NCBI RefSeq assembly: GCF_039555335.1
Contig: NC_092646.1
Location: forward strand, 20,729,029 to 20,793,028
Source: Amphiura filiformis
Lineage: Eukaryota > Echinodermata > Ophiuroidea > Amphilepidida > Amphiuridae
Direction of reading: 5' to 3'
DNA: 64,000 bases
Made by a program: the position numbers and the translations under genes. Shown in pieces: positions 2,292 through 53,956 of the stretch. The number at the start of each line of letters is the position of its first letter. The first letter of the stretch is position 1. Below the pieces are notes generated by a model. The model did no database searches. It was given only the letters and a program-made list of their open reading frames with translations, and was not told where the DNA came from.

Positions 2292-2810
2292 TTGTACATA
2301 CCAGGTCTTTGTGCTATTTGTTCACTCTGTAAAATCACATTCTCCTCACAACTGTGGCATGTGGCTAGTTGCTGCATTCTGCAATAGTTCACACTAACCT
2401 AGCTGTTGGCAAAAGTACAAGAAACATGACTTCAGGTCAAGCTAAAATCATATAAAAAACAAAAACCTTTTTAGTCCTAGCCCAATTTTAATAGTCGTTG
2501 AGTAGACCAGAGTCAGCACCTATGTTAGGCCTATATTGATGTCATGACATGGGTCTGAAGAAATCCCAACTCACACTTGCGTAAATTCACATTAGGGTGC
2601 GCCAGTCACACAATACACAACACGGACGTTGTGTCCACGAAGCAGGAATCTCTGAGGTCTCTGGACTTAGGACCAGACTCTGGTGGGTTAAACCGGTTTT
2701 AGGGGGCCCCAACCGTCCCACTTCCCTCAGAGATAGACTAATTATAGCTTAATAAACGCGTATCACTTGTTGGGAGTGAAATTGTACAAAAGAATGCATG
2801 CATACTGATT

Positions 2811-2880
2811 ACTGAGATGTTGATGCGTCTAATGCATGAGCCCCGAAGGGGGAGTGCATCAGACCCATCAACATCTCAGT
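2811..2880. repeat. Hairpin/inverted repeat
   Basis: ACTGAGATGTTGATG (2811-2825) is the reverse complement of the segment ending at 2880, with a GC-rich centre (AGCCCCGAAGGGGGA). The right arm ends directly at a TAGGCCTA octamer (2880-2887). Confidence 0.6.
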
Positions 2881-2981
2881 AGGCCTACAATTGCATTAAG
2901 TGATTAAATACGCATTTTAACCTATTTCATACACAAATAAAAAAATATTATAAAATCCTGTGATTTTTGTAATTTTTATAA

Positions 2982-3360
2982 GGCCCTTCGCACTTAATTA
3001 TTAGTTTCCTGTTTACCGCCCGCGTCCAAAATTGAAAATCTCAAAATAATTAATTATTTTATTTTTATTTCTAATTTTCTCCTTTAAAATAACTTTCAAC
3101 TGCATCAACTTGCCATTTTCTGACTTTAATAATATCAACAATAATGATGAATAAACTAAGAGTACAACTCTTCCTTGACTTATTAATCAAATATTGTTGT
3201 GAAATAATTAAATGCCCGCCCTAGTCAAAATGAGTTGAAGGTTGCTTGTAATAGTTCAAACTAAATAAAGAAAATAAAAGATAATTAATAATTAAAAGTC
3301 ACCTCGTCCCTTTTTCAAAATCTTGTACAACAGGAAACTAATAATCAAGTGCGAAGGGCC
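2982..3360. mobile_element. Harbinger-like MITE with TAA duplication
   Basis: Ends GGCCCTTCGCACTT and AAGTGCGAAGGGCC are inverted repeats that continue into ATTATTAGTTTCCTG. TAA flanks both sides (2979-2981 and 3361-3363), fitting the TWA target duplication of PIF/Harbinger elements. The 379-bp interior is AT-rich without a transposase. Confidence 0.7.
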
Positions 3361-3623
3361 TAACAAAATTGTCATTAAGATGTTGGAAAATAGAAACAAA
3401 TTTTATATAAATGCCTCGACCCGCAAGAAAAATGAATGCGTCCAGAAGCACTGCGCATACTTCGCGGAGTACGTGCCCTTGCAATTATACAATATTTATG
3501 CATAGCTAGTAATTGTGTTCTGTTTTCAAATTAAAAGAAGAAAATGTGATGTAAATTGAATTAAAAAAGTGAAAAGTGACGCGGTTATGAATGAGGTTAA
3601 TGACTTTGCATAAGTTATTTTTC

Positions 3624-3727
3624 GGGTATTGTGAAATATCTAAACATTAATTAATTGTGCTTTGGACCTCGGAATATCCCTCGGGGCACGGTTCCAAAGC
3701 ACAATGTTTAGATATTTCACAATACCC
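3624..3727. repeat. Long near-perfect hairpin
   Basis: GGGTATTGTGAAATATCTAA on the left pairs with its exact reverse complement ending at 3727. The stem continues through ACATT and, after a 6-base bulge, TTGTGCTTTGGA. A hairpin-type MITE is the likely origin. Confidence 0.6.
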
Positions 3728-3774
3728 TCAAAACAACTGATATGCAGTCATTAATCTCTAAACTAAGTGTTAAT

Positions 3775-4395
3775 GGGTACATAGGCCTACACTCAAGTGT
3801 TTACGGATATATGCGCGCAAGTGAATATGGGTATGCACGCGCACATATTTATGGGTAAGCACACATTTTGTGTACGCATGTGCATGCGCAAGTGTTTGTT
3901 GACTACGCACACACAAGTGACTCCACTTTGCAGGTACGCATGTACGCAAGTATTTGCGGGTACCCGCGCGCACGCAACTTGTTATGCTAGTGCTACTCAC
4001 TGCAAGCGATATGCTAGCCCGAATGCAAAGCAAAGTTAAGGCAAGTCTAACATGCTATGGCATGCTAGAGAAATACTTCACTTTAGTTCAAATCAGTCTT
4101 CAACACACCACTATGTACTGTGGCTCAAGAGCCACGATTTATGGGCTGCAGGCAGTGACTTCTCATTTGAACTGTATGCGTCACATGCGTAGACTAGTAC
4201 GGCCATAAACACTTGCAAACGCATGTGCGTACCCATAAACAATTGCGTTTATTAACACTTGTGTGCATACCAATAAACGCACACGTGTGTGCGTACCCAT
4301 ATTAACACTTGCAAACACATGCGCACGTGTACTGTACCCATAAAACAGTTGCAAACGCATGTGCGTGCGTAGTTGCGTACCCATGCCAAGCATGC
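3775..4395. repeat. Minisatellite of GTTTATGGGTAYGCACAAGT-like units, in inverted halves
   Basis: The left half (about 3775-3990) repeats words such as AAGTGTTTGCGGGTAC and GGGTATGCACGCGCA. The right half (about 4196-4392) repeats the reverse complement (GTACCCATAAACACTTGCAAA). About 200 bp of unrelated sequence separates them. A short third tract of the same unit lies in a GST intron at 61725-61850. Confidence 0.65.
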
Positions 4396-4399
4396 AAGC

Positions 4400-6720: not shown

Positions 6721-7548
6721 TATCATAATGACAGACTTGTACCCGAGTCCAGCTTGTCCGAGTCCGAGCCGAGCCGAGTCCATTTGTATCCGAGTCCGAG
6801 CCGAGTCCGAGCCAAGTCCGAGTCTTTTTGTGTCCGAGTCCGGACTCGAGTCCAAGTCCGGGGGTGCCGAGTCCGAGCCAAGTCCGAGTCCAACAAAAAT
6901 AAGACCCAAGTCCGGCTTGAGTCCGGACTCAGCGAAGTCCATGCCCGGAGGTGGTGGGGGGGGGGGAGGTCATTCAACTTTAATGTGACACTGGTATCTG
7001 CCTACTGGCATTGCATAGTAGGAGCCTATTTGTATAAAAATGGGTCATTTGGTATAACAAAATGAAAAAGGATAATTGGGTATAAAATTTTGAAAGAAGG
7101 GGGTCATTTGGTATAACATTTTGAAAAAATGGGTCATTATTTTCAAAAAGTGGAGCAAAATTATATATTTTGTTTCTAATTTGAAAATTTACAATTCAAA
7201 TTTGCTGAAAAAAAAAAGAATATTTCAAAGTTTCTGCATAATGATGATAAAATTGTAGAAAAAGAAGGTCATTGGCCAAAGGACACTCACTACACTACAC
7301 CACACACCACTCTCCCTATACACACCCACCCACCCTACCAAACCCCACCCCATCCACAAAGTTAACATTTCAAAGATTCAACCCAACTCAACCAACCAAC
7401 TGTACACACACCCCTTCAAGAACCCATACATGTACCCATGAACAGGTAACCATGGTAACTCCTGAAGGTAAAAACTACATGTATCAGACCACCTGTATCA
7501 GACAGCAGCCATGTGATGGTATTTTGTGTGTGTGTGTGGCACACTACA

Positions 7549-7725
7549 CAGTGGCGGATTTAGAGGGGGGCGCACCCGGCGCGCGCCCCCTCTATTTTTG
7601 CAGATCGGCGCCTGACTCTGTGTATTTTTGCAGAGCGGCGCCTAACTTTGTGTGGGCGCCGAGCCGTGGCGGCGGCGATGTTGGCTCGGCGCCCCCTCTA
7701 TTGAAAATTCCTGGATCCGCCCCTG
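7549..7725. mobile_element. 177-bp hAT MITE nested in copy 1
   Basis: Ends CAGTGGCGGATT and GATCCGCCCCTG are inverted. The second copy of the host element (near 36308-36320) has the uninterrupted sequence, which gives an empty-site control. The direct repeat visible here is CTACA (7544-7548 and 7726-7730), five rather than eight bases, so the 3' junction may have lost bases. The interior matches the MITE at 717-801. Confidence 0.75.
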
Positions 7726-7977
7726 CTACATGTATGTAAACTCACAGGGAACTTGCACCAAGGGACTAGAGAAGTGTCACTAGGCTGTGTACAGCATGTA
7801 AATGAATTGCAATGTATTCAAATACATTATAGAAAAATAACATCATCATCATTATCATCATCATCATCATCGTTGTCATCATCATCATAATAATAATACT
7901 AACAGAAATTCTTTAATTCTAAACATCTTGTCAAAATTGTCCCACACAATGTGCAGTGAGTATAGTGCAGACTTGTA

Positions 7978-8156
7978 GTACCCGTACCCGTACTCGAGTC
8001 CCAATTTCCGTACCCGTACCCATGGCTCCATACCCGTACCCGTACTCATGCCTTATTTTGACTTCGGACCCGTACTCGTACTCATGGACTGGGACCCATA
8101 CCCGTACCCATGGACCCGTACCCGTACTCATGGCCCAGGGTACGGGTACGGGTACC
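7978..8156. repeat. CCCGTA/CCCATA hexamer array inside the hAT element
   Basis: About 180 bp of imperfect TACCCG hexamers interrupted by CTCATG and CCATGG words. The paralogous array at about 36568-36766 has slightly different unit counts and substitutions (CCTGTA), so the array has evolved since the copies separated. Confidence 0.7.
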
Positions 8157-10159
8157 CGATGATACAGTACATGGCTAAATGCATGCAGGAAAGTAAGAGC
8201 TAGAGTAGATCTACTCTCACTTCCCACTCATGAATCCCACTGCACTGTGAGTCCTATGATCATAATCAAAGCAAATCTATGTTACATGGGATGGGGATGG
8301 GTGGAAAGTAGCACATTGAGCCAGATAGCAAGTGCCCTAAATTTTAGCCTGGCCCAGGGCCATGAAAAAGGTAAATATGGCCCTGGCTACACAAAATGTG
8401 TATGCTATGTACAGTGTTACCTACACATACTGCAGTTACTGTCCGTTTTCCTATACACAATACACAGTGCTCTCACCATTGACGCGTGACCCCTACAAAT
8501 GATGTATGTTGGGAGAATGGACACTTGCCTAGTTAACATCACTGTGTGAAAAATAACCAGCCAATATTTTATTTATTCTCCAAAACTTCTAGCAAATATA
8601 TTTCTCTAACATGACCTAAAATTACAGCTAGGTTAGATGTTCAGAAATGGTCGTACTTTTGTAAAATATGAGTGAGGGCAAGGCATAGCTAGCCAACTCC
8701 CCATGTTATTTGAATGGAGATTTGACCGAAAATATTGGTATCGGACCGCTCACTTCTGAAGGATGCCACAAAAAAAACCGGTAAAAGCTACATTTAAATT
8801 ATTCTAAATAGGTTCTAGAAAATAAAGTTTTGTAACATGTCCTAAATTTTTAGCTAATTTAGGTGTTTGGAGAGGGTCGTACTTTTGTGTTTTAGGAAGG
8901 ACATGTAAACGACAGATAACACCAAAAATATGAAGAAATTATATCTAAACCGTGTTAAGTCAAAAATCATTATGTTGCTCATTTTCAAGAATGCTGGTTT
9001 ACAAAAAGCACGACATTGTCTGATTTCGTGAACAAAGCCACACATAACATTGTTTCCTTTCGTTTCCTTTATAATCGGTTACCCAACTGAAGCTATGAAT
9101 ACCAGCTTTATTGCGATATCGCACATGAAAACAGTCACTTGTGCACAACCAGAGAAGATCCGATTTAATCAGTTGAGCTGTTTCAATGAGTGTTATCTTG
9201 GTTTAATAGCTTTTAATGGGGTTAAGTCCTGCAAAGGTCGAGATGAATTCTACTGTAGACATGACTGCATCATGATAAGCTTACACTGTGACAGCCTCCA
9301 GCCTGATGTAGGCCCTACATGTACACACTTGACTTGATGCATGTATTACAATACTACATGTTGCATTCACCATGTTCACACTCTGACTGATACAGAAAAT
9401 AAGTCAGCAAACTGGAAAAACATTTCAAGAAATTGTCTTTTGAGGTGAATTTCAAGTTATCATGTTCATAGCTTTTGTTCATCATTTTAATATTCCCCAC
9501 CCTAATAAAGTGCACACATGAAGAACTATAATGTGACTGGTGTGAGCAGTGAACACTTTCCGCCATGCACATGTATAGTCACATGAATAGAGAGTTCTTT
9601 ACCACATCTGTAAACACTGAGAGGAACTTATAGGCAAAGTATTAACAAATCTTGGATATAATTATCCTGATGTGCATAATTAATGATAATAATTATATTA
9701 AGCTAATGGATAATCTGGTGTGTGCCAGGGATGTGTGGATGTGCATGAAAGGCTCCACTTATTTGGAAAATTGACAATTAATTAAAAGTCTAAAAATTTT
9801 AGATCAAATTTGAGATCCAATTGATGTTTCATGTTTTGAAATAAATAACAACTTGAATGCTATATCACTACTAAATGTCAGCCCCAATTAATTAGGAAAA
9901 TGGCCAAATAAGTAAAGTCAACAAATTTGAGATCTATTTTGACATTTTAGATAAGCATTTCACATTTTACAAGGATTTATAAATTGACTGGACTCGGACC
10001 GGACTCGGCTTCGAGTCCGAGTCCTTTTGTGTCCGAGTCCGAGCCGAGCCGAGTCTTTTTGTGTCCGAGTCCGAGCCAAGTCCGAGTCCAACAAAAAGTG
10101 GACTCGAGTCCGGACTCGAGTCCGAGTCCGGACTCGAACGATACATCACTGCATAATGA

Positions 10160-12273
10160 GGCATAATTTTGATATTCTGTCTTTAACTGGATATATATCG
10201 AGAAGTGCAAGGTGGATATACTAATATACTTTGGGATGTAAATGGTGAGTACAATTTAGAATGCCTAGTTGAGATGGATTTCACAAATAAATATATAAAA
10301 TGTGACCGTCCACGGCGAATGAGCCGTAAATTCCTCCCTGGTCAATTTTGTTTTATTTCGTGTTTAAAAAATAAACATCATAAACTTAAAAATGGTATAT
10401 CATTTGACTTCAAACGATATCCAGAAGCGGGGTTATGGTTTGTTAAACTTTGCTCCTTCAATTAACAAAATTATAGCTTTTTACGTTTTTACATGTGTTT
10501 CTTTTTCCACATTGTTGGCAATAAAAATCAATTTGTGCTGCCGGGTCACAAATAGTTACCAAAATCAGAAAAGTTAAGCTTACGGAAAACTACCCAATAT
10601 GGTGGTATAGGTGACAAGAAATACAATTTGTTCAACATTGATGTAGTATGGTCGTGGTAACCTGTTACCTGTGGCTTAATTAAGTTTCAGTGAAATAATG
10701 TCGCAAGTTAAAAATACAAAATATAGCTCAACATTGAAAATAGAAGCATTTTAACCAGTTCCTTTTTGATAGTTGTGGAGCACCAAATTCATGAAGTCAT
10801 AAAAGAAATCAGGAACCACTTATTCCCATTTTACATATCAACTTTATTTCCCTAATGTGTTAGCAACACATATCCAAAATTATAACGAAATCCGTTGATA
10901 GTAAGCTTTCCAAAATGAAGTGAATTTAAATCATCAGTGATGTACCACCATTTGGCTTCTACTTTTAAAAGCATGTAAGCTACGTTGATACCGATGCCAC
11001 CAATAAAACGAGAAGATTTGCCCCTTCATTTTGCATACCACTTTGTCATTTTTGTTTCTTCACAAAATGCAAAAAATGCAAACAAAAAAATCAATGGGTG
11101 TAGTACCCCTTAATGTGTAAGGATCGATTGAAAATACATTTCTTTTCTAGTTGGCCTATGTACCTTTTATAGAAAACACATAATTATTTGAAGCTCGTAC
11201 GTTTTTAGAGAAATTTTGTGACGTGCCTTCGGTAATTTAATTTCAATAGTATTTACCTTTGTTTACAATTTAAGGGCAGAGTAATGGGAGAGAACATGGA
11301 CCTTTTCGAGCTTCATTATTTCTGAATTGTATGACCAAAGTATATAAAACTATACATTTTTGGAAAGGAAATGAGTCAAGGAATCCCATGGTGACGTCAG
11401 ATTTGTTCAAAAATCTCAAGTTTTTGAAAAAAATCACAAAAAATTCACTTTTTTAACCCAATTTTTTTGTGACAACTTGGAAAAAAATCCGTTCGGAGTA
11501 AAAAAAATTTAGTGAGCTTTTCATGAAGAAGAGACATGAACTTAGGGAAGGTTTTTTTATTTTTTTTTGAAATTCGTCTCTTTTTTCAAAATATTGAAAA
11601 AAACATGTGGAAAAAAGCCATTTTGTCACTCTATTAAGCTAAAAATTGCACATAATGGTGTATATATTTTTGTTTAAAACAAATATTTTGAAAAAATGAA
11701 AAAACCTTCCCTAGACTTTGATGTACTCTAAAGGATAGTGCAAAAAGTTTACCCTTTGCTTGCCTATTTTTCGAGGTATCTTGTCACAAAAATCGCGCAA
11801 TATTCTCAAAAGTGAACTCTGAGAAATCGACGTTTTAGTAAAAAAATGTCAAAATTATGCACAAAACGTCCTTAAATTTTAAAACGGTAAGACTTTCACA
11901 CTTGTAAAAGCTGTATCTGGTGCATGGTCTAAATATGCATCTTTTTGCACCAATGAATCTATAATCTCTGCTTTCAGTGCGCCAAAATTCAAAATAATTA
12001 AAAAATCTAAGTGACATTTTGACTGCAAATTTTTGTTTTTTTTACACCACATTTGCTGACGTTAACAACATACCGAATGCGCCGTAGCAGTACTTCCAGT
12101 GGTGGCACCCCAGCAAACACACAACGTTTTACAGAAAATGTTTAAATGCTGGGTATGGCTCAATCCCGACGCTCAATGTAACTTAAAAACACACTAGGAA
12201 ATTTTGTTATTCCAGAAATAATTTCCATATTCTCAACAGCGCTCTCAAAACCCGTTAATCCAACAGCCATTCA
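10160..12273. other. AT-rich sequence without recognisable gene
   Basis: No domain or splice-supported exon was seen. At about 11060-11116 there is a degraded 3' end of the TTAA MITE family (word GGGTGTAGTACCCCTTAA, complete at 33541-38107). From 11300 to 12050 the sequence is A/T-run rich and resembles the interior of the TTAA element at 49300-50410 only in composition. Confidence 0.45.
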
Positions 12274-15176: not shown

Positions 15177-16014
15177 GCATCACCCATCAGTGGCGTAGCC
15201 AATGGGCAAAGCGTGTGAAGTCTTCCTTCTTGTCGCCCCGGATGCTAGCCGCTTTGATATTTTTGTATGCCTTTTTTTGTGTCCGTTTTTGACCTTTTCT
15301 TCACATTTGCCCCTGAAAGTTGTCTTGTTCCCCGTATATAGCATCTGAAAAAGTTCTGGCTGCACCTGCCATGCTCCCCCTCTTAGACTGGGTCAATATT
15401 TCATAATAGCGAAAAATGTGAAAAATCATGAATTAAATGTTGTTAAATAATGTTAGACCCAACAAGTTTTCAAGTTCCCCTTGACAAACCTGATGATGAA
15501 CACTTAATATGTTAATTCTTTACAAACTTGGTATTTCCCGTGATTTTTTAATAAAAGCTGTAGAACGTCGGGTAATATAAACTTTTCTGAATCAATCCAT
15601 TTAGTGCAATAATCGTAATAAATCGTAGTATATCAATACTGTCAATAATTATTAAAACGACCTTTAGACTAAGTTTTGCTTGAAAAGATGTATTACTAGG
15701 ACGTCATTGCATTGGACAATTTCGGCGCCCGGGAATTTTCAATATCACGTGCTGAGAAACGGCTGTATTAATTCGTTTTATATGGTCAATATGAGTTTGT
15801 TTCAAATAAAACCACGTGATTTGTGCTTGATTATATCAGGCGGATTTATCCTAAATCTTCTTCTTTCTTCTTTAGTAGAACCGAAAAACGCTATGGTGCC
15901 AGACGCTTGCACCAATTTCGACCATTATTATTATATTTTGATGGATCCAAGTGTGTGAAAGTATTGGATCCAAAACATAATATTGATAAAATTGGATGCT
16001 TTACGCCCAATATT

Positions 16015-16095: not shown

Positions 16096-17639
16096 GAAGA
16101 CCCAAGTATAGATAAAATAATCAAGTGCCATTTTGACGAAATTGAGTTATTGGCAGATTATAAGTCACTGGGGGTCAAACATTTTTTTCCTGAAAAGTAG
16201 GGGTCACGTGAGGGGTCAAGTGGGGTCAAAATTTCAAAGTGGTCCGATTTGTTTCAAATTGGTTCCAAATTATTCGATAGGGTACAAGGATTACAAAAAT
16301 ATACAGTTTGCCATATCTAACGTGCTTAGTTTAGCAGTTCAAGGTCAATCAAAAGTCAAACGAGGTCAAATTTTCAACAACATCTGATTGCATAAATGAT
16401 ACACCAAATTGTTCCTCTCAATATGGGCATTTTAAAAATGTATACTTTTAACTATTATTAGCTTTGAATTTTGTGAAAAATGCAATTGTTTAAATCTGAC
16501 CCATGGTTTTAGTAGAAAAAGTAGTCAAGTACAAAATACTGATTATTGATTATAGAAAATCAATAAATGACAAATCGTTGATTGATAGCTAAATTAAGTA
16601 CAATATCCATATCAATTCATTACCAGGTGGTGGCCGCATTGCATTCTCTAAATTCAGTAAATTTTTTAAAACGCTTGAAATATCACAAACAAATAGGCCT
16701 ATGTTGATAAATAATATAAATACAAGCTAAAACCGTTGGGGGTCGATAATGAACCCCACAAAACTAACCGACTATATTGGAAAATGCCATACGACCGGGC
16801 GGTTTCACAAGTTGCCGGCTCGATCATGTCATCCGCCGCCTGTTCATTACAGCAAGTTTTATACCAAAATAACTAAGTTTGTGGTCAATAGAAACAATTC
16901 ATAAATTTAAACCCATTTTATTCAAAACTGTTAATATTTTGGCACTAAACTACTTAATCCACTAATAACTTCTACACAGATAGTGGTCAAAGGTCACGTA
17001 AGGGTCATTTTGTGAAAATATAAAAAATGCTACTCCTACTTTAAACTGCATGTTATGACCACCAAACGTGATCTGAAGAACCGCTGACCCAAGCTTCAAA
17101 TAAGTTGTACCACAGATTGGGGTCAAAGTTCATGTAAGGCTTAATAGGAGTCATTTTGCGTGAATATTTGCGTAAAATGTAATGAAGCAGCTATCATTAG
17201 AGGCAGCAATTTGGCAGATAACTTGTTCCGGGAGACAGCTTGTCTGCTATTTTGATAACAAGCATATTGTTTCCAAGAAAGTGAAGTAAATAGTGAAATT
17301 CCCGAAGTATTATTAAAACAGTATCTTAACCACAGTAATGACCAAACTGGACATGTCTAAGATCGCCCAGTGGAATAGCCCATTTTGTGGTTAGTTAAAT
17401 AGTATTTAGATCACAGGAAATTATGGTGTCCCATGATGCATTTATGAAAATACACACTAAGGGTATGTGGTAAATGCTACATAGTTGCCTCTGATTGCGC
17501 AATAATGGTGAATACTTGTGCGGTGGCGGTTTGGTGGTCAAATGTTATTCCTTCCCATGATGTATTTATGAAAATCAATACATACACACTAAGGCTACAA
17601 TTTAGATGCTATAGTTTCTACCAAAATTGTGAAATATGT

Positions 17640-19475: not shown

Positions 19476-19637
19476 CGTGGCTCGTGAGCCACACTAGCTC
19501 TAGTTGAATTTTCTATCATATAAGGCATAATGTTGTTAATGCTTTTGAGGTCTGTACATAACGTGTCCAATATGATATGATCCAAGCAAATGTACCTATT
19601 TTCAAGCAAAGCATAGGCCTAGTCCAAAGGTCGAGTT

Positions 19638-20327
19638 ATGTACGTCATCCACCAGTGGAGCTCCTGCGCCCCTCCGCAGAACTTTTATTAATAAAATAAG
19701 AAAATAATTTACTCCGACCGTGGATGTTCTGCGCCCCCGAGCGCAGAAATGATCCACCAGTATTAGGCCCTATAATAAGAAAATGTATTATATTGCTTCC
19801 GAGCGCAGTTACTCCAACAGTGGATGTTCTGCGCCCGAGCGCAGCAATGATCCACCGTTACATATAAGGGACTGCGCCCGGGCGCATGAACTCCGACCGT
19901 GGATGTTCTGCGCCCGAGCGCAAAAATGATCCACCGTTATTATAATACGAAAATCTATTATTTTACTTCCGAGCGCAGCAACTCCGACAGTGGATTCTCT
20001 GCGCCCGAGCGCAGCAATGATCCACCGTTACGTATAAGGGACTGCGCCCGGGCGCATCAACTCCGACAGTGGATGTTCTGCGCCCGAGCGCAGCAATGAT
20101 CCACCGTTACGTATAAGGGACTGCGCCCGGGCGCATCAACTCCGACAGTGGATGTTCTGCGCCCGAGCGCAGCAATGATCCACCGTTATTATAATACGAA
20201 AATCTATTATTTTACTTCCGAGCGCAGCAACTCCGACAGTGGATTCTCTGCGCCCCCGAGCGCAGAACATCCACTACCGGAAGTTCTGCGGAGGGGCGCA
20301 GGAGCTCCACTGGTGGATGACGTACAT
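19638..20327. mobile_element. GC-rich palindromic array bounded by perfect 47-bp inverted repeats
   Basis: Positions 19638-19684 and 20281-20327 are exact reverse complements (47 of 47), beginning ATGTACGTCATCCACC. Between them lie tandem units (79 bp between the units at 20061 and 20140). Each contains the palindromes CTGCGCCCGAGCGCAG and TGCGCCCGGGCGCA plus the words GTGGATGTTC and ATGATCCACCG. Every unit can fold, and the whole segment can fold end to end. The composition is sharply different from the AT-rich surroundings. No protein is encoded; a non-autonomous foldback-type transposon is the best description. Confidence 0.75.
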
Positions 20328-21781: not shown

Positions 21782-22352
21782 CTGTAAACAATAAATAAAA
21801 TGTCGTTCAAATGAACAGGGAACAAACCAAATGTGCTTTCGTAAGGAGAGTTGAAAACTCCAACCCGAAACCTTGACCGATATTTTAACTGTATAGTCAT
21901 GATAGTTATTGTAATCGGACTTTTTCAGGTTCAGGGGTCCCGAGTAAAAGCGAAAATGAGTTTAAAAGGCTCGTAAAAGGCCCGAGGTCCATAACGAAAG
22001 CACTTTCGTTTATAGGGTGTCATCGAACTTTTGGTTTGTTCCCTATAAGAGGTTTCGATTTCATACGCCAATGTTTAGAATTATATGAAAACGGGTGTTT
22101 GTAAATAGTGGAATTGATTGAAATGAATTAAACTGGTCCAAATGGGGTCAAATTTAATAAAGCAAAATTAGTCATTAAATTTTAAAAACAAATACTATAA
22201 TTAAATAGATAGTCATACAGTAGGCTATGATAGGCCTATCTCTTACCTGGAACTGGTTCTTGTTCTGCTGAAGTTGGCTCATTTTGTGCGCTGGTCAAAA
22301 TAATAAGAGTTGTTACCAAAAGTAGGCCTACCACACACAGTCTAGCGTTCAT
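21712..22352 (-). CDS. Start of an unrecognised secreted protein (two exons, 3' part missing)
   Basis: On the minus strand an ATG at 22352-22350 opens a 35-codon exon (22352-22247) ending at a canonical donor (CAG|GTAAGA). It encodes a textbook signal peptide: NARLCVV, a hydrophobic core GLLLVTTLIILT, then a likely cleavage site near SAQ/NE. An acidic segment NEPTSAEQEPVP follows. The next exon (21781-21712) has a TTTACAG acceptor and a GTAAGT donor, and it joins in phase 1 to continue DLTPEDRLALHDKTVVIVG. The reading frame stays open across the junction and phase 2 is left for a third exon, which I did not find. A 34-bp direct duplication spans the second donor (about 21671-21720). The family is unknown. 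Confidence that it is a real gene comes from signal peptide, splice sites and phase agreement together. Confidence 0.55.
22247..22352 (-). CDS. Secreted-protein exon 1 (signal peptide)
   Basis: 106 nt, from ATG to the CAG|GTAAGA donor, ending one base into a codon. It encodes the signal peptide and the first acidic residues of the mature chain. Confidence 0.55.
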
Positions 22353-22585: not shown

Positions 22586-23081
22586 GCCTATATGGGTTGC
22601 CGTGGGATGTAAATTATTGATATTGGTCACCTATAATACTACAGGTGTTTGGAAATATATTGGTGGATCATTATACAGGGTGGTTAAAACAACAATGACA
22701 AAATATAGGCCCTATAAGGTTTTTATCTATAATTCCTGCTTTCTGTAACATGTGGAGTGGTCTCAAGGATGCAGAACGTGGGAGAGCGGGGAGCACCGCA
22801 CCCCGGCACCGCACCTGAAAATGACTATCAATTAACACTGAGGAACTGAGAAAAGAGGAAAGGGAGAAAAGTGGAACATGTGAAAGGCGTCAAAGAAACA
22901 GAAGAACGTAGAGAACCTCTCAGTGTGTCCATTCTCCTGGAGAAGAAGACGAAGAAGAAGCAGGAGAAGTAGAAGAAGATAAATAGAATTTAATAATTAC
23001 TGATTCCAAAAACAACTGTCTCTCCGTGTCCTCCGTGTCGGACTGTGTGGGCACGTGAGGTGGGCGCACGTATCACATCTA

Positions 23082-32056: not shown

Positions 32057-32434
32057 ATTTTGATAAATTTGTGACTATTTTTGCACTTTTCTCAAAAAAC
32101 AACAATAGTTAACAAAAAAGTAACAAGAGTTATGTATATTATAGGGGCAAGGAATCCAGTTACCACACTGGAATTTCAGTGACTCACGACAAGCGGTACG
32201 TTATTTAGGCCTATGATAAGAAAAGAGGTACCGCTAGAAATTATGTATAGGCCTACCTCATTTCTTAACATATAGGCCTATAATGAACCACTTGTCTTGA
32301 ATCACTGAAATTTCAGTGAAGTAATTGGATTCCTTGCCCCTATGGTATACATAACTTTTGTTACCAGTGTGTAGTTATTTTCTGAGAAAAATGCAAAATT
32401 AGTCACAAAAGTTATCAGGGGGTGTAGTGCCACC
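32057..32434. mobile_element. TTAA MITE family member, 5' truncated
   Basis: Palindromic element centred on two inverted copies of GGGGCAAGGAATCCA; its 3' end GGGTGTAGTGCCACC abuts TTAA (32435-32438). Compared with the sibling at 33541-38107 it has TAGGCCTA at 32206, 32248 and 32273 where the sibling has TA or simple TA-rich sequence. Confidence 0.7.
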
Positions 32435-32865
32435 TTAATCGTAATCATTAAAACATTTTGTGGTGTGAGAATTACAAGATTCTGACTGACATTGTTGTGT
32501 TTGAAATACAACTATTTTAAGTTCACAGAGTCAGAAAAACAATAGAAAATAAACGAAATGTAATCGTAAGTAAGGTAGGTTTTTAAACAAGTTAAATATT
32601 TAAGAAACCTATAAAAGTTATCATTTTAATGTTGGGAAAATGAAGATTTCATCAATACCATTAACTCCAAAAACACTAAAATGTAATAGTTATCACTCTA
32701 TAATTTTCAGCCCATATTACAAAAATACACTCTCTTAGCATGCTGTGAAAAAAGTTCTAAAATAATTATGTCCCCTATGTATGGAACTCTTAACGATTCT
32801 CTAACGATCTAAAAAGATTATACAAAGGTCAAAAATGGTTCTGGAAAGGGTTGGATGACACTTTT

Positions 32866-33010: not shown

Positions 33011-34570
33011 AGCTTAATTTATTGTTCTTAATGATTTCTGTATGTTTTTGAAGAAGTTGCCAAACCCGTTATAGAAGCCCAATTGGGCAACTTCTGATGA
33101 TTTTGAAGACAAAATGGACCACAACTTTAAAACTATTATGAGTAGAACCCCTTGTGTTTTTGTATTATATTCTTTACTTCTTCCTCTTTCATTTCACACC
33201 ACTCGGGGGTTCATACCTTCGTAGCATTTAAAGATATATCCATTTCAGACCAAAAGGTTGGTCAGTCTGTCAAGTAAGTAAGATACACTAATGTAGGCTG
33301 ATACCATTTCATGGTTCAGCAAAAAAACAAAACTTCTTATTGATAAGTAAAAGGAAAAGTGACCTTTGCCATTTGGCCCAGATATTCAAGGTCAATGACC
33401 CCCACCGCCCAAGAAATCGCTTGACCTACTTTACAAGCAGATATAGCTAGAAATTAACCAATATATGATTGCATTCTAACAAGAAAGATGTATTTAGACT
33501 TTATAAATCAATTCCAGGTCATAGCATATCTATAGCTTAAGGGGGTACTACACCACTTGATAAATTTGTGACTATTTTTTGCATTTTTCTCAAAAAATAA
33601 TAACACACTGGTAACAAAAGTTATGTATATTATAGGGGCAAGGAATCCAGTTACTATACTGTGGGAATTTCAGTGACTCAAGACAAGCGGTGCGTTATTT
33701 ATGATAAGAAAAGAGGTACCGTTAGAATGTACCTCATTTCTTATCATAAATAACGTACCGCTTGTCTTGAGTCACCGACATTCCAGTTTAGTAATTGGAT
33801 TCTTTGCCCCTATAATATAGGCCTACATAACTTTTGTTACCAGCAGGGGCGGATCTTGATATGGTTATGGTGGTGCAGCGCACCACCCTAGAATTCCAAA
33901 AAATAGTGTGATCAAATATGTAATTATCATGTTACTTAAAAATCAATAAAACCCTACAAATTCCATTAAAAATGGCTATTCTGGCTTATTCTGTGAGTCT
34001 TAACCATGTATCATAGGGATTTTTAAGTTTTTGTCCAGTGCATAATTAGAAGTAAACTGGCAACCTCAAAATGGTACACATTCCAGTTTCGCTCCACTAG
34101 TTGCTATCTCTCCCACATAAACCCACTATGCAATGACTATAAAAGCTTTTCCATTAGCTTCTATGCGACCCCTACACTACACCGTGGTGCAGAAAATAGG
34201 TTCGCTCCACTTTTTCATAATCTTCAACACAGTTCAACATCTTATGTGGCCCACAGAGTCAAGAAGAATTTCCTTACTCAATAGTCAAAAAGTTGAGGTT
34301 TCTGTGGAGTCTAGACATCTGCAGCTTGTTTATCCACAGATATCGGAATATCTGTGGTTTATTGTAAGAAAGTTATTGTGGTTTCAAGGTTTTTGGATTA
34401 AGTTTAATGGAAGTGTCATGGTGTGTGATCATTCAGGGTGAGTCAGTGCCACAATTACCGTATGTCAAAATATTGTTCAAACTAAACCTGTATAATAATG
34501 TAACCTCATGCAGACCTACTAAGCACTAAGCAAGAACTTATTGCACCCTATATATTTTTGGTGTGCTAAG

Positions 34571-35372: not shown

Positions 35373-35507
35373 GTAAGTTTTATTTGAAGAATCAAGGATC
35401 TTGTTTTTAACCTATTTATGTTCAGGTTTTTTTTTTTAATTTACCCTAAAAGTATGCACCAAATCGCACCATTTTAACTTTACTTTTCAAAATTTCTCAA
35501 TTTCTGA

Positions 35508-37915
35508 CAGACTTGTACCCGAGTCCAGCTTGTCCGAGTCCGAGCCGAGCCGAGTCCATTTGTATCCGAGTCCGAGCCGAGTCCGAGCCAAGTCCGAGTC
35601 TTTTTGTGTCCGAGTACGGACTCGAGTCCAAGTCCGGGGGTGCCGAGTCCGAGCCAAGTCCGAGTCCAACAAAATAAGACCCAAGTCCGGCTTGAGTCCG
35701 GACTCGGCGAAGTCCATGCCCGGAGGTGGTGGGGGGAGGTCATTCAACTTTAATGTGACACTGGTATCTGCCTACTGGCATTGCATAGTAGGAGCCTATT
35801 TGTATAAAAATGGGTCATTTGGTATAACAAAATGAAAAAGGGATAATTGGGTATAAAATTTTGAAAGAAGGGGGTCATTTGGTATAACATTTTGAAAAAA
35901 TGGGTCATTATTTTCAAAAAGTGGAGCAAAATTATATATTTTGTTTCTAATTTGAAAATTTACAATTCAAATTTGCTGAAAAAAAAAGAATATTTCAAAG
36001 TTTCTGCATAATGATGATAAAATTGTAGAAAAAGAAGGTCATTGGCCAAAGGACACTCACTACACTACACCACACACCACTCTCCCTATACACACCCACC
36101 CACCCTACCAAACCCCACCCCATCCACAAAGTTAACATTTCAAAGATTCAACCCAACTCAACCAACCAACTGTACACACACCCCTTCAAAAACCCATACA
36201 TGTACCCATGAACAGGTAACCATGGTAACTCCTGAAGGTAAAAACTACATGTATCAGACCACCTGTATCAGACAGCAGCCATGTGATGGTATTTTGTGTG
36301 TGTGTGTGGCACACTACATGTATGTAAACTCACAGGGAACTTGCACCAAGGGACTAGAGAAGTGTCACTAGGCTGTGTACAGCATGTAAATGAATTGCAA
36401 TGTATTCAAATACATTATAGAAAAATAACATCATCATCATTATCATCATCATCATCATCGTTGTCATCATCATCATAATAATAATACTAACAGAAATTCT
36501 TTAATTCTAAACATCTTTTCAAAATTGTCCCACACAATGTGCAGTGAGTAGGCCTATAGTGCAGACTTGTAGTACCCGTACCCGTACTCGAGTCCCAATT
36601 TCCGTACCCGTACCCATGGCTCCATACCCGTACCCGTACTCATGCCTTATTTTGACTTCGGACCCGTACTCGTACTCATGGACTGGGACCCATACCTGTA
36701 CCCATGGACCCGTACCTGTACTCATGGCCCTAGGACCCATACCTGTACCCATGGGTACGGGTACCTGATGATACAGTACATGGCTAAATGCATGCAGGAA
36801 AGTAAGAGCTAGAGTAGATCTACTCTCACTTCCCACTCATGAATCCCACTGCACTGTGAGTCCTATGATCATAATCAAAGCAAATCTATGTTACATGGGA
36901 TGGGGATGGGTGGAAAGTAGCACATTGAGCCAGATAGCAAGTGCCCTAAATTTTAGCCTGGCCCAGGGCCATGAAAAAGGTAAATATGGCCCTGGCTACA
37001 CAAAATGTGTATGCTATGTACAGTGTTACCTACATAAGCTTACACTGTGACAGCCTCCAGCCTGATGTAGGCCCTACATGTACACACTTGACTTGATGCA
37101 TGTAGGCCTATTACAATACTACATGTTGCATTCACCATGCTCACACTCTGACTGATACAGAAAATAAGTCAGCAAACTGGAAAAACATTTCAAGAAATTG
37201 TCTTTTGAGGTGAATTTCAAGTTATCATGTTCATAGCTTTTGTTCATCATTTTAATATTCCCCACCCTAATAAAGTGCACACATGAAGAACTATAATGTG
37301 ACTGGTGTGAGCAGTGAACACTTTCCGCCATGCACATGTATAGTCACATGAATAGAGAGTTCCTTTACCACACCTGTAAACACTGAGAGGAACTTATAGG
37401 CAAAGTATTAACAAATCTTGGATATAATTATCCTGATGTGCATAATTAATGATAATAATTATATTAAGCTAATGGATAATCTGGTGTGTGCCAGGGATGT
37501 GTGGATGTGCATGAAAGGCTCCACTTATTTGGAAAATTGACAATTAATTAAAAGTCTAAAAATTTTAGATCAAATTTGAGATCCAATTGATGTTTCATGT
37601 TTTGAAATAAATAACAACTTGAATGCTATATCACTACTAAATGTCAGCCCCAATTAATTAGGAAAATGGCCAAATAAGTAAAGTCAACAAATTAGAGATC
37701 TATTTTGACATTTTAGATAAGCATTTCACATTTTACAAGGATTTATAAATTGACTGGACTCGGACCGGACTCGGCTTCGAGTCCGAGTCCTTTTGTGTCC
37801 GAGTCCGAGCCGAGCCGAGTCTTTTTGTGTCCGAGTCTGAGCCAAGTCCGAGTCCAACAAAAGTGGACTCGAGTCTGACTCGAGTCCGAGTCCGGACTCG
37901 AACGATACATCACTG
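35508..37915. mobile_element. hAT-type element copy 2 (innermost nested element)
   Basis: Same termini as 6732-10151 (CAGACTTGTACC...ATACATCACTG), with its own perfect 8-bp duplication ATTTCTGA (35500-35507 and 37916-37923). It lacks the MITE at 7549-7725 and the 849 bp corresponding to 8426-9274 (junction near 37034/37035). It carries TAGGCCTA at 36549 and 37103 where copy 1 has only TA. Otherwise the copies are almost identical, indicating recent activity. Confidence 0.9.
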
Positions 37916-39392: not shown

Positions 39393-40172
39393 TTGTTGTT
39401 ATTCATTTGAAAGTAATATTTAAAAATATAATCGCAACTTCAACATAGGCCTACCACGTGACAAGCAAAGACAGAAAACGTATTATATTTTGGAATTTTA
39501 TCATTAATGTGTATTATAATAGAGCTACCATTATTTATATTGTTGAATTCTCAAGCGCATCATTTCGAATTGGGTTTTTATTCCTAAAGCCCGATACTGA
39601 CTCCACCTGTACATTTTAATTTCCTCGCGGGATGCTGAGATGTTTGAAAAGCATCGCAGCATCGCATACTGCTGCGAAGTGGAGTCAGGATCGGGCTTAA
39701 TGCGAACCACCAGCATCCATGGTTCGATGTAGAGATTATTCTTTCCTATTCAGAGGAAATTTTGTAATTACACACCTTATTGCCTTTTAACAATAACCAA
39801 TGACACTAGCACGTAATTCCAGTCAAGCACCAATCTTTAATCCTATTGTTGAAGAGGATAATAAGCTTATGTACTTATGTATAGCATTCGTAAAAAAGCT
39901 TAAGTCTTTGTTTGCTTTGGTTAAATCCTGTTCAAGTGGTGGGTTAAACAACAATTAACAATGAGAGGACATTCCTGAACCTCGTTCATTTGGCGATGAT
40001 TTGAAGTGACCGCCAATTATGACCATTTGATATTTAATACCAGCAATGTGGAAAAAAAATAATGTAATGCTAAAATAATGTACCCTTTTACGGAAGGAGC
40101 AAAGTTTAACAAGTTACAACTCCGCTTCTGCAGTACGAATGTTATTATTTCCTAGTCTTGAAAAAAAATTGC

Positions 40173-40529: not shown

Positions 40530-40581
40530 AATGGTTATTATGATTTTAATGCTACGCTACAATTTGTTCCATTTGTTCCAT

Positions 40582-40617: not shown

Positions 40618-40923
40618 ATAATTTGATATATTTGAAAGGGGTATTTGAGCAATTTGAAATTTTTACCCCGTATAATCCTATGGGTAATTTTGAACCCACC
40701 CCTCCCAAATTGCCAAAACCTATGAGTTTAAATGATACATAATGATCAGTACGTCAATCATGAGTGAACACCGGTTGGTCACTGCATTTATTTGGGAATG
40801 GGTAGGCACTGCAGCTTGATTCACCATCCACAACATGATAATGTGTGCACTTGCTACATTATATACACTTGTAGGCCTATGTTGTTGTTGGTGTATAAGT
40901 AATGGGCCTTGCAATTGAAATGC

Positions 40924-44366: not shown

Positions 44367-45466
44367 AGATTAAGTTACATCAAACATTCTACATCCACTA
44401 AAAAGTCTGTAGGGGCCTTAATATATTATATTTCTTTATTACCAGGTAGTAGACTAGGTATCTTTACAGTGCAGAATATATGCATCATCACTTACTGACA
44501 TTTGAAATCAAATTCTGTTTTTTAAATAAAAATCTAAGTAAGTCAACAATCACGTTTTATGACAAAATTGGTATCATCGATTGTGAAACCCATTTAGACC
44601 AGGCTTTTCGATATGGATTTATCGAGCTGATCTAATTGTTGTTTAAAATCAGATCATAATAACTATTTTCCATATTTGAAGGATAATAGGTATTTTGATA
44701 ACATTGTTTTCATTGATCAATTAAGTGAAGTCCGAGGTAAACGGTGATATATCTTAAATGAAGTGAACGGCAATCACAACATTATGTCTTCTAATGTTAG
44801 AAAAATAATCATCAAAGACGGATCACATGGTTTTATTTAAAACAAACTCATATTAACCATAAAAAAGACATCTCTCAACACGCGATATTCAAATTTCCGC
44901 GCCGAAATTGTCTAGTCTATTTTGTATGAAAATGTTATAATAATGGCATTAATAGACACCTCAACATAAAAATAAGAAAATGTTTAATAATAATATGATG
45001 CCAATTTCGTACCGGTTTTTTTTTTTTTATTTGGTCATAATAGGCCTATATCACAAACATTGTACATGCATTGTTTTGTGACAAGACACTATGGGCGAAT
45101 TTCTCGACGGGTGGCTTAGCAATTGGCTTGTCTAGCCTCAAGGCTTAAGAGGTCGTAAGACCAGGCTTAACTGAAAACGTATTTCCCGAAGCACGGCTAC
45201 CATAGCCTCGAGGCTTCGTTAGCCCGTGGGCCAGGCTTGTAGGATTAGCCCTAGGCTTCAGTAAAATTTGCATTTCTCGAAATCAGTCTTCTGTAGCCGT
45301 AGTCTACGCAAGCCTGTAAGAGCTGGCTTACAGCGGCTTTTCTTGGCCCTGCCTCAGAGCAGGTCTTAGGTCGTAAGCCTTGGTCTATTTCAATTTACAA
45401 ATTATTTAAATTGTAATGCAAAGTTTATCTTTCATATTTTTGACGGTCTTTCATAACATGAGTAAG

Positions 45467-45894
45467 CAGTCGCGTAACTGGGGGAAGCGGAGGAGCTCTT
45501 CCCCCACCATGAAAAAGGTAAATTAGGCCTACTTCTGAGAGTTATTAATTAACCTCATATTTGGTCATTTTAACCTTAAAAACTCAATTTTTAAGGTTAA
45601 ATAAATTGCATTTATCCCACTTTTGTACCATTGGCCTATATGTCACCAGCTTTAATAGCTTAAATATGGCATTTCTACCATAATTTTTTTTTCAATCCCA
45701 CCTCCCCCATGTCAAAAGAAATCTACGCCAATGTTCCGGGGACACATTCCAAGCAGATCCCATAACTCCTCAGACCCACTCCACCCCTTACAAACCCAAA
45801 CAGCATGAAACAACGATGCCTGCCCCTCATTTATTATGTTTGCCCCCGCTTTCCCCACCCCACCCCCAAATGAAAATGTCTAGTTACGCCACTG
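45467..45894. mobile_element. hAT MITE (CAGTCGCGTAACT...AGTTACGCCACTG)
   Basis: Inverted ends plus 8-bp flanks TGAGTAAG (45459-45466) and TGGGTAAG (45895-45902), one mismatch. It contains TAGGCCTA at 45524. Confidence 0.7.
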
Positions 45895-46188: not shown

Positions 46189-47049
46189 AGACCTATATGA
46201 TACCACCTGTCCCTATCCAAGCCTTAATAGTTTGATACTCGTACTTTTCATAGGCCTATTACAATATTATTTTGGAGTGTCTATATTATACCAGGTTGGA
46301 CATCAATTTAATACAATAGAAGAAGGACAAAATTGGTAAAGATATAGTAAATATTTGACACGAAACAATAATGCATGCAGTATTAAAACTGAATTTACGG
46401 ATAAGATGCATATAATATTGCTATCTTCTACTTAAATAATTATAAATATTGTACCAACAGATAACTTCAGGTGGGATCTGAGAAGACTACTGATATCAGC
46501 AGTAGATAGCACGTTGGTTGCTTTCCTTTTTAGGGGAATCACAGATTCCTTTCCATTAGGCTTACAGTTTAGAGTCAAGAAAAAATCACGAGTATAAAGC
46601 ATAGACGTATCATTCATACAAGTTGGACTCATAAAAAGTCAAGTGGAAATAAAATAATACATAAAAGACACAAAAACAGACAAAATATTCTTGCATCAAG
46701 TTGTGCATGGTATAAGCCCAAGCACAAGACCGCGGGTCCAGGCTAGTCTTTGCGCCGGGAACATTGCGATAATGAGACGGCAACCTTGTTAGTACGGTAA
46801 ACCGTGAGGACCACAGCTTATGTACATCTACCTCCAACAGCCTATACAATTAAGTCGCTGGTTGAAAGGGACGAGGTTGTCAAGCGTTAAGCCTGCAAGG
46901 CCACTAAGACTAGGTTGAATTTGCGTTGAAGAAATCCGGCTAGAGTTAAGACTCGGGCTTCGAGAGCGGGCTAGGCTTAGTAGCCTCAAGGTCACCTTAA
47001 GACTACGGCTTAATAAGACTCCTGTCGGGAAACTCGCCCTATGACACAA

Positions 47050-50840: not shown

Positions 50841-50849
50841 CCGAGCCCT

Positions 50850-53300
50850 TAAGTGAATATCATGATTATAGTCTACCTACGTGATTTTTGTTGACACATT
50901 TGATTCAAATGATCAATATTTTTTCAAGGTATTTCCCCTTTTCCTATCAGATCGATGACAATGAAACAGATGCGATATCCCATTTACACTGTATAATCGT
51001 AAGTGTCAGACATTTGTGAAATTTACTATGATAACTCGATAAATAATAACACATTTAGCGGATATAAATACGCTAAATGTGTTAACAAAATGACTTTAGC
51101 GTTCATATATCAAGTTAAACAGAAAACACATATTGGCACAATTAGTATTTTTCAAAATAAATTTCTTTTAAGTGATTTTCATAAATTTCAAAATTCTACC
51201 ATTTTACAGCCCATGTTTACTATAATAATATTGTATAATTGATTAAAGGATTAGTTGAACAAAGTGTTAACAGGTGGTTATTAGTGTTATATTTTCGGAT
51301 TAGTGGAATTTATCAATAATACAAAGTGCAAAACAATAATGTTTTTAATTTTGTACTAACATTTGTTGTATTCTATAATACTCCAATAAATCTATTTGCC
51401 AAATGTGTGATGATTTTTATATATATTTTTGTAATAACAAGCAATTCAAATTAGTTACAAAAAGTAGACTGCTAAAAATTAATAAATATTTCGGTAGAGT
51501 ACTTAAGCTTTAGTTAAAGGGACATTTTGTGATCCACGGCTTCACCACCACCCCCACCCCACCCCCACCACCCCACCCTTTTCTATAAAAATAAAAAATA
51601 AAAATAAAAAGATGATGTATATCTTCAATACAATACAAAAGGTCAAACGTTTCATATGATGGTCGGCTTTTCATCCATATCAGAAAATATTAGGAAATAT
51701 CAGTATTTATTTGTAAATGCCACCAATGACATACCAGGAAATACTCATGTTGAAAGCTGAATTGAAAAATGTGTGCTGAATAGGTCTACATTTAATTCAT
51801 ACTTGTAACAAAGGACTCCCAATGGATATCTCACATTTAAGTTTTACGACAATCCGATAATCTATTCAGACGATCTTAAGAATGTTTGATGCTCAAGGGT
51901 GATCATATCAACCCAGAAAAATGTGTGCTAAATAGGTCTATATTTAATTCATATTTGTAACAAAGGGCTCAATGTAAATCACATCCAAGTTTCACGACAA
52001 TCCAATAATCTATATTCAGACGACCTTAAGAATGTTTGATGCTCAAGGGTGATCATATCAACCCAGTTTCATGATAATCCAACTATCTTATTATCAGTAA
52101 CTGTTACTTATTATCAGTAACTGATGACCTTGATGGTTTCGACGCTTAATTGTGATTACATGCACCACGTTTTATGACAGTCCAACAATCAATGGTCAGT
52201 TGACATCAAAACCTTTACACGACTTTGAACATTCTGACAATCCAACAATATAGCCCCTCCACCTATACTTAGTCGACCTAAAATAAACAATCTCATATCT
52301 TTTTCTGAATACACATCTTGAAGGTCATCACAAGAAAGTCATGCATATGCAAAATGAAGCAAATTCCTATTGCCAACTTGGTAAAATGTATAATCGGTAA
52401 CCCAATCTCGTACATCATTGTGGTTTCGAAATATTTCAATTGGTTCTATATTTGTTGAAATATGAGACGCAGAAACCCAAATCTAGAACAAACAATCATC
52501 ATTTATAAAGATATAGCTTTCCATGGTAAAGATATTGGACCAAAGACAAATTACACCTAAATTAAGTGTAAATTCAGGGTTTGCAGCCATGGCGGAAAAA
52601 CTGACCAATTATTAAAATTTGACTTTCATTGCCAGTTAGAACAACCTATTAAAAGGCTTTAGGGTTTAGCTATGTTTCATTTGGCAAAAGTTGATAATAT
52701 TAAAAAAGAGGGGAAAAAAGTGCTGTATTTTTGTGGAATATGGCATAGTGAGCAAAGCATCATTCTGTGGCACTCACTGATATCTATAACAATATTATCA
52801 AATAAAAATACTATTGGAAGAGTGCAGTGACGTTCAATGATTATTGAAAATTATTATCGATAATATCGCAAATAAAAATTTGCTCAAGGTTACTTAATGC
52901 GTCATAATTATTTCAGTTTTGTTTGTTTTATTGTCGAATTGTTATAGTTAATGGTTCATTTTGTTTGTTCTGCATTTTGAGAAACAACCAGTTTATATAT
53001 TCATCAATATGAGCTAATATGGTCCATCAAAATCAACCAATTTTGCTCTAAAAATTCTGCGCCAATATAAAATATAAAATATGACCAGTTGCTTCCTTGA
53101 CTCATTTCTTCTACTGTAAGATCAAATGCATATTACTCATACAGAAATAAACTACCCAGAAATGAAATAAACTGTAAAGCAAAATATAAAAATAAACCCA
53201 AAGGTCAAGCCTATCATATTAGCAATAAATTGCATTAAAAATCAAATGAAAAATGATTTTAAAAATAATATTGAAAAAAGAGGGCGACATGTAAACTTTG
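50850..53300. other. AT-rich intergenic sequence
   Basis: No gene seen. A tandem pair of about 150-bp units at 51767-52062 shares AATGTGTGCTRAATAGGTCT and GACGAYCTTAAGAATGTTTG plus GCTCAAGGGTGATCATATCA. A short palindromic-repeat fragment lies at 51610-51675. The rest is unique AT-rich DNA. Confidence 0.5.
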
Positions 53301-53401
53301 TAGCATAGCAGGCCTGTAGCATAGCCCATATTTGTGACGATAAAAACAGGTGGATACATACCAGGTATAGACGAATCCAATTTCACGCATTCCTACACCT
53401 C

Positions 53402-53640
53402 AATGGCAGACATAGCTGGGTCCCCGTCGGCTCATATCTCACTTAAAATGTGAAATGATGCGGCCTTGGAGGGTATTTTAAACTGCATTCTATCACCCGT
53501 GTTACACGTAGACAAAAGAATCATGACAGTTTAGAACACAAAAGAACTCTAACATCGATTTTTAAGCGGCTTTAATCCACCCGGGGCAGTCACAACACCA
53601 GTTTGGTGTTGCGGGGACCCAGTAATGGCCGACCAAATCC
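53402..53640. repeat. Small inverted-repeat element
   Basis: CATAGCTGGGTCCCCG on the left is mirrored by CGGGGACCCAGTAATGGCC on the right. An inner hairpin CAACACCAGTTTGGTGTTG lies near 53597. No duplication defined. Confidence 0.4.
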
Positions 53641-53956
53641 TGACAATGACTTGGCTCGTTGGATATAGTATTCAAACACCTGCCCTCTATAGATTACTAT
53701 GAGCATGCTATGAGTAATGTAAGTAAATATCGATTGTTCCTATGTGATTTGATAACCCCACCATATTTTGTTATTAGGGGGATGCATGGTCCATACAATC
53801 ATCTCCGGCAAATTCAATGCACCCCCCCCATGTTGCATGACGCCTGAACATGGGTTTCTATACCAAATTAATCCCATAGGCCTACTTGCATACATTTTAG
53901 CCTAAAACACTCTCTTTGCGCGAAGTTGTTCCACTTTTGCACCATCTTTCACATAG

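Follow-up and report, generated by a model that had tools for sequence, protein, structure and literature searches.

What process has written the same four bases again and again into one animal genome? The question is raised by a stretch of 64,000 nucleotides from the ophiuroid Amphiura filiformis (NC_092646.1, positions 20,729,029 to 20,793,028; hereafter the window, with an A+T content of 63%), in which the palindrome TAGGCCTA, that is, GGCC enclosed by two TA dinucleotides, occurs 19 times. Comparison of related copies within the window demonstrates that the insertion of GGCC at TA is real, specific, recent and recurrent. As to its source, a roughly evenly balanced judgement is that the marks were left by the excision of a cut-and-paste transposon that targets TA, behaves like a Tc1/mariner element and has ends of the form GG...CC.

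Over-representation of the palindrome

Markov models of orders 1 to 3 predict 0.47-0.61 copies of TAGGCCTA in the window by chance. The mean over 100 dinucleotide shuffles of the window was 0.56, and that over 40 sequences simulated at order 3 was 0.75, with a maximum of 3 in either set. Among the 73 words of the form TA-N4-TA that have at least three copies, TAGGCCTA shows by far the lowest Poisson probability (about 3e-24). The original prediction, made from the sequence by eye, had already counted 19 copies and considered the word strongly over-represented. Both statements hold (19 versus about 0.5 expected): all the copies exist and 18 of the 19 coordinates are exact, the remaining one, given as 33828, being 33818. 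Since the flanking bases vary from copy to copy, with 12-mers containing TAGGCCTA seen at most twice each, the word is not part of a longer repeat.

Where the 19 copies carry four bases between the two TA, the four copies of a variant, TAGGCCCTA, carry five; their previously listed positions (9309, 19764, 22706 and 37068) are all correct. They amount to three independent sites, because 9309 and 37068 are duplicates of each other, against 0.26 expected on both strands together. The word TAGGCCGTA is present in a single copy, at 47327, which may be a chance occurrence. Among the open-licence papers listed by literature searches, no title or abstract reported TAGGCCTA as a recurrent insertion. 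Our impression is that TAGGCCTA and TAGCCTA are frequent in fish and sea urchin sequences, which is a lead only and not evidence.

Filled and empty sites

To compare filled with empty sites, the sequences on either side of the 19 TAGGCCTA and four TAGGCCCTA copies were fused at TA and aligned to the window, and a match was accepted only where it spanned the junction. Such a counterpart exists for seven of the 19 TAGGCCTA copies (19614, 32206, 32248, 32273, 33818, 36549 and 37103), and in all seven cases a counterpart without GGCC is among them; for the 12 copies that have no counterpart in the window, insertion is assumed. Five of the seven (19614, 32206, 33818, 36549 and 37103) show no other adjoining insertion or deletion (indel), and here the filled and empty states differ by exactly 6 bp each, with the TA target doubled around the scar. 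The corresponding difference is 7 bp for the TAGGCCCTA at 19764, where GGCCCTA is extra relative to two tandem siblings; two more siblings lack a larger stretch at this place.

Most of these pairs had been proposed before, and alignment reproduces them: TA at 7961, 9344, 33700 and 32348 faces TAGGCCTA at 36549, 37103, 32206 and 33818, respectively, tandem siblings have TA where 19764 has TAGGCCCTA, and the gain at 32248 relative to 33730 indeed exceeds six bases. The pair absent from the original prediction is that of 19614 with the TA at 15670-15671 on the minus strand, a 35-bp match of 86% identity with substitutions adjoining the TA. The sites 32248 and 32273, both in a palindromic repeat designated A, carry extra changes beside the insertion relative to the related repeat B (Table 1). 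When the arms bearing 32206 and 32273 are compared with each other, both are filled, and it is possible that one insertion was copied from arm to arm instead of two insertions having occurred.

Repeats A and B, like the more distant repeat C, are palindromes with a GGGGCAAGG core inside larger arms, and apparently end at TTAA.

To guard against selective reading, all well-flanked indels of 3-14 bp were tallied across 403 self-BLAST alignments of the window, which yielded 63 records; rotations and strands were merged into classes. The AGGCCT class was the commonest, with five records from four independent sites, and the other recurrent classes consisted of 3-base changes, tandem repeats, a single event that had been listed twice and another that both copies of the duplicate carry. 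The earlier claim that GGCC, rarely GGCCC, appears repeatedly at TA with the TA doubled is thus borne out by the alignments within the window, as a repeated and young gain.

The same alignments already disfavour the view of TAGGCCTA as a selected or mutation-favoured palindrome, such as a protein-binding site or a product of methylation or repair bias. The word is palindromic and strongly over-represented, as this view would have it, but the comparable gains are 6-bp insertions in repeats and not substitutions, and words with one mismatch are not in excess; such an origin is highly unlikely.

Polarity and the young duplicate

The direction of change can be read at two sites. At 33818, TAGGCC is present in one of six homologous palindrome arms and plain TA in the other five, including both arms of distant repeat C; because only one of the six is filled, the difference is a gain. 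At 32206, repeat B shows plain TA in each of its arms. The converse, that TAGGCCTA is ancestral and was lost by diverse deletions, had been raised along with the original prediction and fails at both of these sites. A more uniform loss, in which the TA copies shed six bases through the TA-TA direct repeat, retains some room at 36549 and 37103, for which the window holds no outgroup, but it meets the same empty arms at 33818 and 32206 and leaves the over-representation of TAGGCCTA unexplained, and is extremely unlikely.

The segment containing these last two sites belongs to a young duplicate (6729-10151 and 35505-37915) with 12 substitutions between its copies over about 2,380 aligned columns. 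The full alignment has 20 substitutions in 2,408 columns, of which eight beyond 10151 were left out, and 2,390 columns entered the rate calculation. Apart from homopolymer and tandem-repeat changes (among them changes of 10 bp and 4 bp within a CCCAT-type array), a 182-bp insertion and an 850-bp difference, the multi-base differences between the copies are exactly two 6-bp gains of TAGGCC, at 36549 and 37103, both in the same copy. TAGGCCCTA is present in both copies, at 9309 and 37068.

The duplicate also has features of its own. The 182-bp insertion, at 7544-7725 in one copy only, has inverted ends of the GGCGGATC type, and CTACA, five bases, appears by eye to be duplicated around it; it resembles a recent hAT-like miniature inverted-repeat transposable element (MITE). 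The 850-bp stretch at 8425-9274, again in one copy only (compared with 37034), is either an insertion or a deletion. Near the ends of the duplicate lie CCGAGTCC-type short-repeat arrays (6743-6891, 10012-10124, 35519-35600 and 37778-37855), and words of this type rank among the most over-represented 8-mers of the window.

Age and rate of insertion

One-mismatch neighbours of TAGGCCTA number 12 against 14-16 expected by chance, and because they are not in excess the insertions appear to be young. A steady supply of insertions decaying by substitution predicts about 22 extra one-mismatch copies beside 19 intact ones and is rejected (P about 4e-6), and a single pulse would have an age of at most about 3.6% substitutions per site. 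The young duplicate, with two gains per 12 substitutions, or about one per six (95% range about 0.02 to 0.6 per substitution), points to insertion that was both faster and more recent, on the basis of two events of assumed polarity. The rate derived from these same two events would reach the present density within about 0.2% divergence (range 0.05 to 1.5%).

Target context

A purine precedes the first TA and a pyrimidine follows the second (R-TA-Y) at 15 of the 19 TAGGCCTA sites, compared with a background of 0.287 of all TA in the window; the p value of 8e-6 is optimistic, since the context was chosen after the flanks had been viewed. The same context surrounds 159 of 501 other TA-N4-TA occurrences. 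Such symmetry is as expected of a dimeric enzyme acting on TA, and a palindromic target preference around TA is a feature shared with Tc1/mariner footprints.

It is against this context that an artefact of assembly or library preparation, adding GGCC at TA in reads or contigs, has to be judged. The exactness of the insertions, their lack of decay and the lack of a donor would fit an artefact, but a preference for R-TA-Y that other TA-N4-TA occurrences do not share would not, and the TAGGCCCTA at 9309/37068 is shared by the two members of the duplicate, as expected of an inherited change. No library step known to us produces both a doubled TA and GGCC, and we consider an artefact highly improbable.

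A possible excision mechanism

Doubled TA and symmetric R-TA-Y are the traces expected of a TA-targeting transposase, and the absence of a one-mismatch excess fits a recent wave. From these marks we infer a transposon, its ends and a route of repair. An element with GG at its left tip and CC at its right tip would insert at R-TA-Y, duplicating the TA, and its excision would leave two end bases per side, giving TA-GG-CC-TA; if one of the two cuts lay a base further inwards, TAGGCCCTA would result. If the cut left 2-nt 3' overhangs, GG, on both flanks, these would be unable to pair with each other and repair would retain both. The scar might be uniform because GG overhangs cannot pair, so that there would be no shared one-sided product to prefer. 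A single uniform product would likewise follow from a self-complementary overhang of 4 nt, GGCC. Cut-and-paste transposition can hold copy number low, which may result in few active copies and many scars.

Several observations weigh against excision scars, beginning with the product itself. One-sided scars are not enriched (TAGGTA 9 and TACCTA 15, with 14 expected each), and TAGGCTA and TAGCCTA together reach 7 against 4.2-5.7 expected, which is no clear enrichment. The count of TAGCTA is 11 against 9.3-10.4 expected, and that of TAGGGCCCTA is zero. The only clearly enriched product is two-plus-two, rarely two-plus-three, and the mixture including one-sided scars that is usual, although not strictly required, for Tc1/mariner footprints was not found. 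Three TAGGCCTA lie inside 75 bp, which is odd for independent visits of a transposon; across the window clustering is mild, with three adjacent gaps below 100 bases against 0.60 expected (p=0.018), two of the three in repeat A.

The second difficulty is the donor, for which three inverted-repeat searches of the 64-kb window gave no convincing candidate. The first retrieved 139 matches between TA-flanked 16-bp inverted repeats at most 4 kb apart, after a low-complexity filter, and six of the 139 have GG at both ends: the pair at 11543-11712, three single-repeat GGGGCAAGG cores, one cross-pair of cores and one pair inside a Tc1-like element. In the second, in which TAGG...CCTA pairs with a 12-base inner match were set against 11 other end classes, CC- and CG-ended pairs outnumber GG-ended ones. 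In the third, for TA-GGCC...GGCC-TA with one mismatch allowed in GGCC, the best inverted match with exact GGCC at both ends covers only 13 of 20 bases; better pairs (20/20 and 17/20) had GACC and TGCC ends, and the 20/20 pair joins two copies of one repeat in opposite orientation. The Tc1-like element, at 58669-59729, has inverted ends of about 220 bp that are 92% alike, TA on both sides and a DDE_3 transposase fragment inside (10 open frames scanned), but its ends are AACTACGC/CACTACGC and not GG.

Two kinds of candidate were examined and rejected as donors. The repeat at 11543-11712, with GGGAAGG ends, is flanked as T-TA...TA-G and not as R-TA-Y, and one copy of it was seen. The GGGGCAAGG cores seem to be inner parts of the larger, seemingly TTAA-bounded palindromes.

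The transposon-footprint hypothesis of the original prediction therefore stands in part: the repeated young gain of GGCC at a doubled TA is found, and the intact TA-flanked element with GG...CC ends is not, none of the six being convincing within the window. The missing donor counts against the scar model while leaving room for a transposon, given that a low copy number is feasible and 64 kb is a small sample.

Other possible ways of writing GGCC

It is somewhat unlikely that GGCC is written at R-TA-Y by anything other than ordinary excision, whether a break-and-add micro-insertion or the joining of the ends of germline-limited elements. In the former, an alternative that the original prediction had also named and that is unlikely when taken by itself, a staggered cut in TA, offset by two bases, would be followed by the addition of two G, or sometimes three, at each 3' end, through an activity resembling terminal transferase or the copying of a short template, and the ends would be joined with no transposon involved. 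The product is very uniform, with no clear one-sided scars and no convincing donor in the window, and the three insertions inside 75 bp surround the centre of palindromic repeat A, a plausible hotspot of breakage; all of this would suit micro-insertion. Untemplated addition, however, should spread the lengths, and neither TAGCTA, nor TAGGCTA with TAGCCTA, nor TAGGGCCCTA clearly exceeds expectation; nor is there an overall hairpin bias, the hairpin energy around the 19 sites being ordinary (p=0.17), as is the local A+T content (p=0.32). To our knowledge, no enzyme performs such a break-and-add insertion of GGCC.

In the latter, germline-limited TA-flanked elements would be cut from somatic DNA in each generation, and the somatic genome would display their joined ends. 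Many uniform, undecayed scars could thereby coexist with the lack of a convincing intact element in the window, but elimination of the ciliate type restores a single TA and not a four-base scar, and programmed scars are very improbable.

Comparison with known transposons

Returning to excision by a transposon, the likeness to known systems is partial. Tc1/mariner scars are reported as 2-4 bp and those of the ZB element as 0-3 bp (PMC7913693), those of the pogo element Passer as 0-4 bp (PMC9976928), and the Sleeping Beauty scar is its 3-nt 3' overhang (PMC7827188). Tc1/mariner footprints thus resemble TAGGCCTA in the doubled TA target with a few end bases between, and the length of 4 bp fits. 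They differ in that the residue in the window is nearly always the symmetrical GGCC, with no clear one-sided versions, and the window yielded no GG-ended element with a matching transposase. Stowaway MITEs of grasses leave varied footprints, end fragments of 1-4 bp at empty TA-flanked sites (PMC1925063), and share with TAGGCCTA the TA flanks and the short end fragments; their varied scars, however, occur beside known intact elements, whereas the window has one dominant type and no convincing element. Known elements as a rule leave mixed scars (Stowaway, PMC1925063; ZB; Passer, PMC9976928), and the uniformity of those in the window is a further point against excision. ISL2EU ends usually begin with GG (PMC4482050), as would those of the donor proposed here, but ISL2EU and PIF/Harbinger (PHIS) were dropped as candidates, since they duplicate AT and TWA, respectively (PMC4482050), and the duplication in the window is TA.

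For Tc1 of C. elegans, whose ends are CA, a two-plus-two scar of this layout would be TACATGTA. In the window, however, the enrichment of this word is no more than about 5-fold and shows no link to R-TA-Y (4 of its 12 copies). It was set aside as a sister scar type, copies A and B of the young duplicate together accounting for 8 of the 12.

Loci outside the window

Viral contigs contain at least 120 stretches with two TAGGCCTA within 30 bases; the seven of 120 inspected resemble, by eye, phage contigs that carry tandem repeats or palindromes. Two of these contigs (L089, 4561-4793, and L067, 3599-3997) have clustered TAGGCCTA among other short palindromes, with no relation to the window seen. 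Of two repeat-derived 16-mers, the first was found at 40 genome-contig and 12 viral-contig loci and the second, sought in viral contigs only, at five loci; TAGGCCTA occurs once in these 57 loci (456 kb). None of the 177 outside loci, viral stretches and 16-mer loci together, aligns to the window at 1e-4.

Coordinates and other features of the window

Table 1. Sites of TAGGCCTA and TAGGCCCTA in the window and the repeats that contain or calibrate them
Feature	Position	Strand	State or remark
TAGGCCTA copy	2526..2533		no counterpart in window
TAGGCCTA copy	2880..2887		right edge of 68-bp palindrome; no counterpart in window
TAGGCCTA copy	3782..3789		no counterpart in window
TAGGCCCTA variant	9309..9317		common to 37068
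TAGGCCTA copy	16694..16701		no counterpart in window
TAGGCCTA copy	19614..19621		plain TA in short counterpart 15658-15692, minus strand
TAGGCCCTA variant	19764..19772		plain TA in tandem siblings 19890-20012 and 20139-20263
TAGGCCTA copy	22231..22238		no counterpart in window
TAGGCCTA copy	22323..22330		no counterpart in window
TAGGCCCTA variant	22706..22714		no counterpart in window
TAGGCCTA in palindromic repeat A	32206..32213		plain TA in both arms of repeat B
TAGGCCTA in repeat A	32248..32255		absent from repeat B; less clean, extra bases adjoining
TAGGCCTA in repeat A	32273..32280		absent from repeat B; less clean, adjoining substitution; mirror position of 32206
TAGGCCTA in right arm of repeat B	33818..33825		plain TA in five other homologous arms
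TAGGCCTA in young duplicate	36549..36556		TA at 7961 in other copy
TAGGCCCTA variant	37068..37076		common to 9309
TAGGCCTA in young duplicate	37103..37110		TA at 9344 in other copy
TAGGCCTA copy	39446..39453		no counterpart in window
TAGGCCTA copy	40872..40879		no counterpart in window
TAGGCCTA copy	45041..45048		no counterpart in window
TAGGCCTA copy	45524..45531		no counterpart in window
TAGGCCTA copy	46251..46258		no counterpart in window
TAGGCCTA copy	53877..53884		no counterpart in window
Copy A of young duplicated segment	6729..10151	+	empty TA at 7961 and 9344
Copy B of young duplicated segment	35505..37915	+	filled sites
Palindromic repeat A	32061..32438 (approximate limits)		three TAGGCCTA
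Palindromic repeat B	33537..33843 (approximate limits)		one TAGGCCTA
Palindromic repeat C	55937..56280 (approximate limits)		more distant; no TAGGCCTA; gives polarity for 33818

Elsewhere in the window, tandem arrays with units of about 101-206 bp at 17720-19274 contain AGGTCA-type direct repeats similar to nuclear-receptor half-sites. Three copies of TAGCGCTA (60411, 60542 and 60660) fall within some 260 bases. Open frames at 58193-58456 and 61400-61645 match theta-class glutathione S-transferase, a reverse transcriptase fragment lies at 23852-24661, and there is an Rfam tRNA match at 40459-40530.

Significance

If the density observed here holds genome-wide, a single type of four-base scar would be among the commonest small structural changes in this animal, and only a comparison of copies would reveal it. 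Such a scar would be either the fossil record of a very active transposon, vanished or hidden, that makes excision directly countable, or a pointer to a mutational process not yet described.

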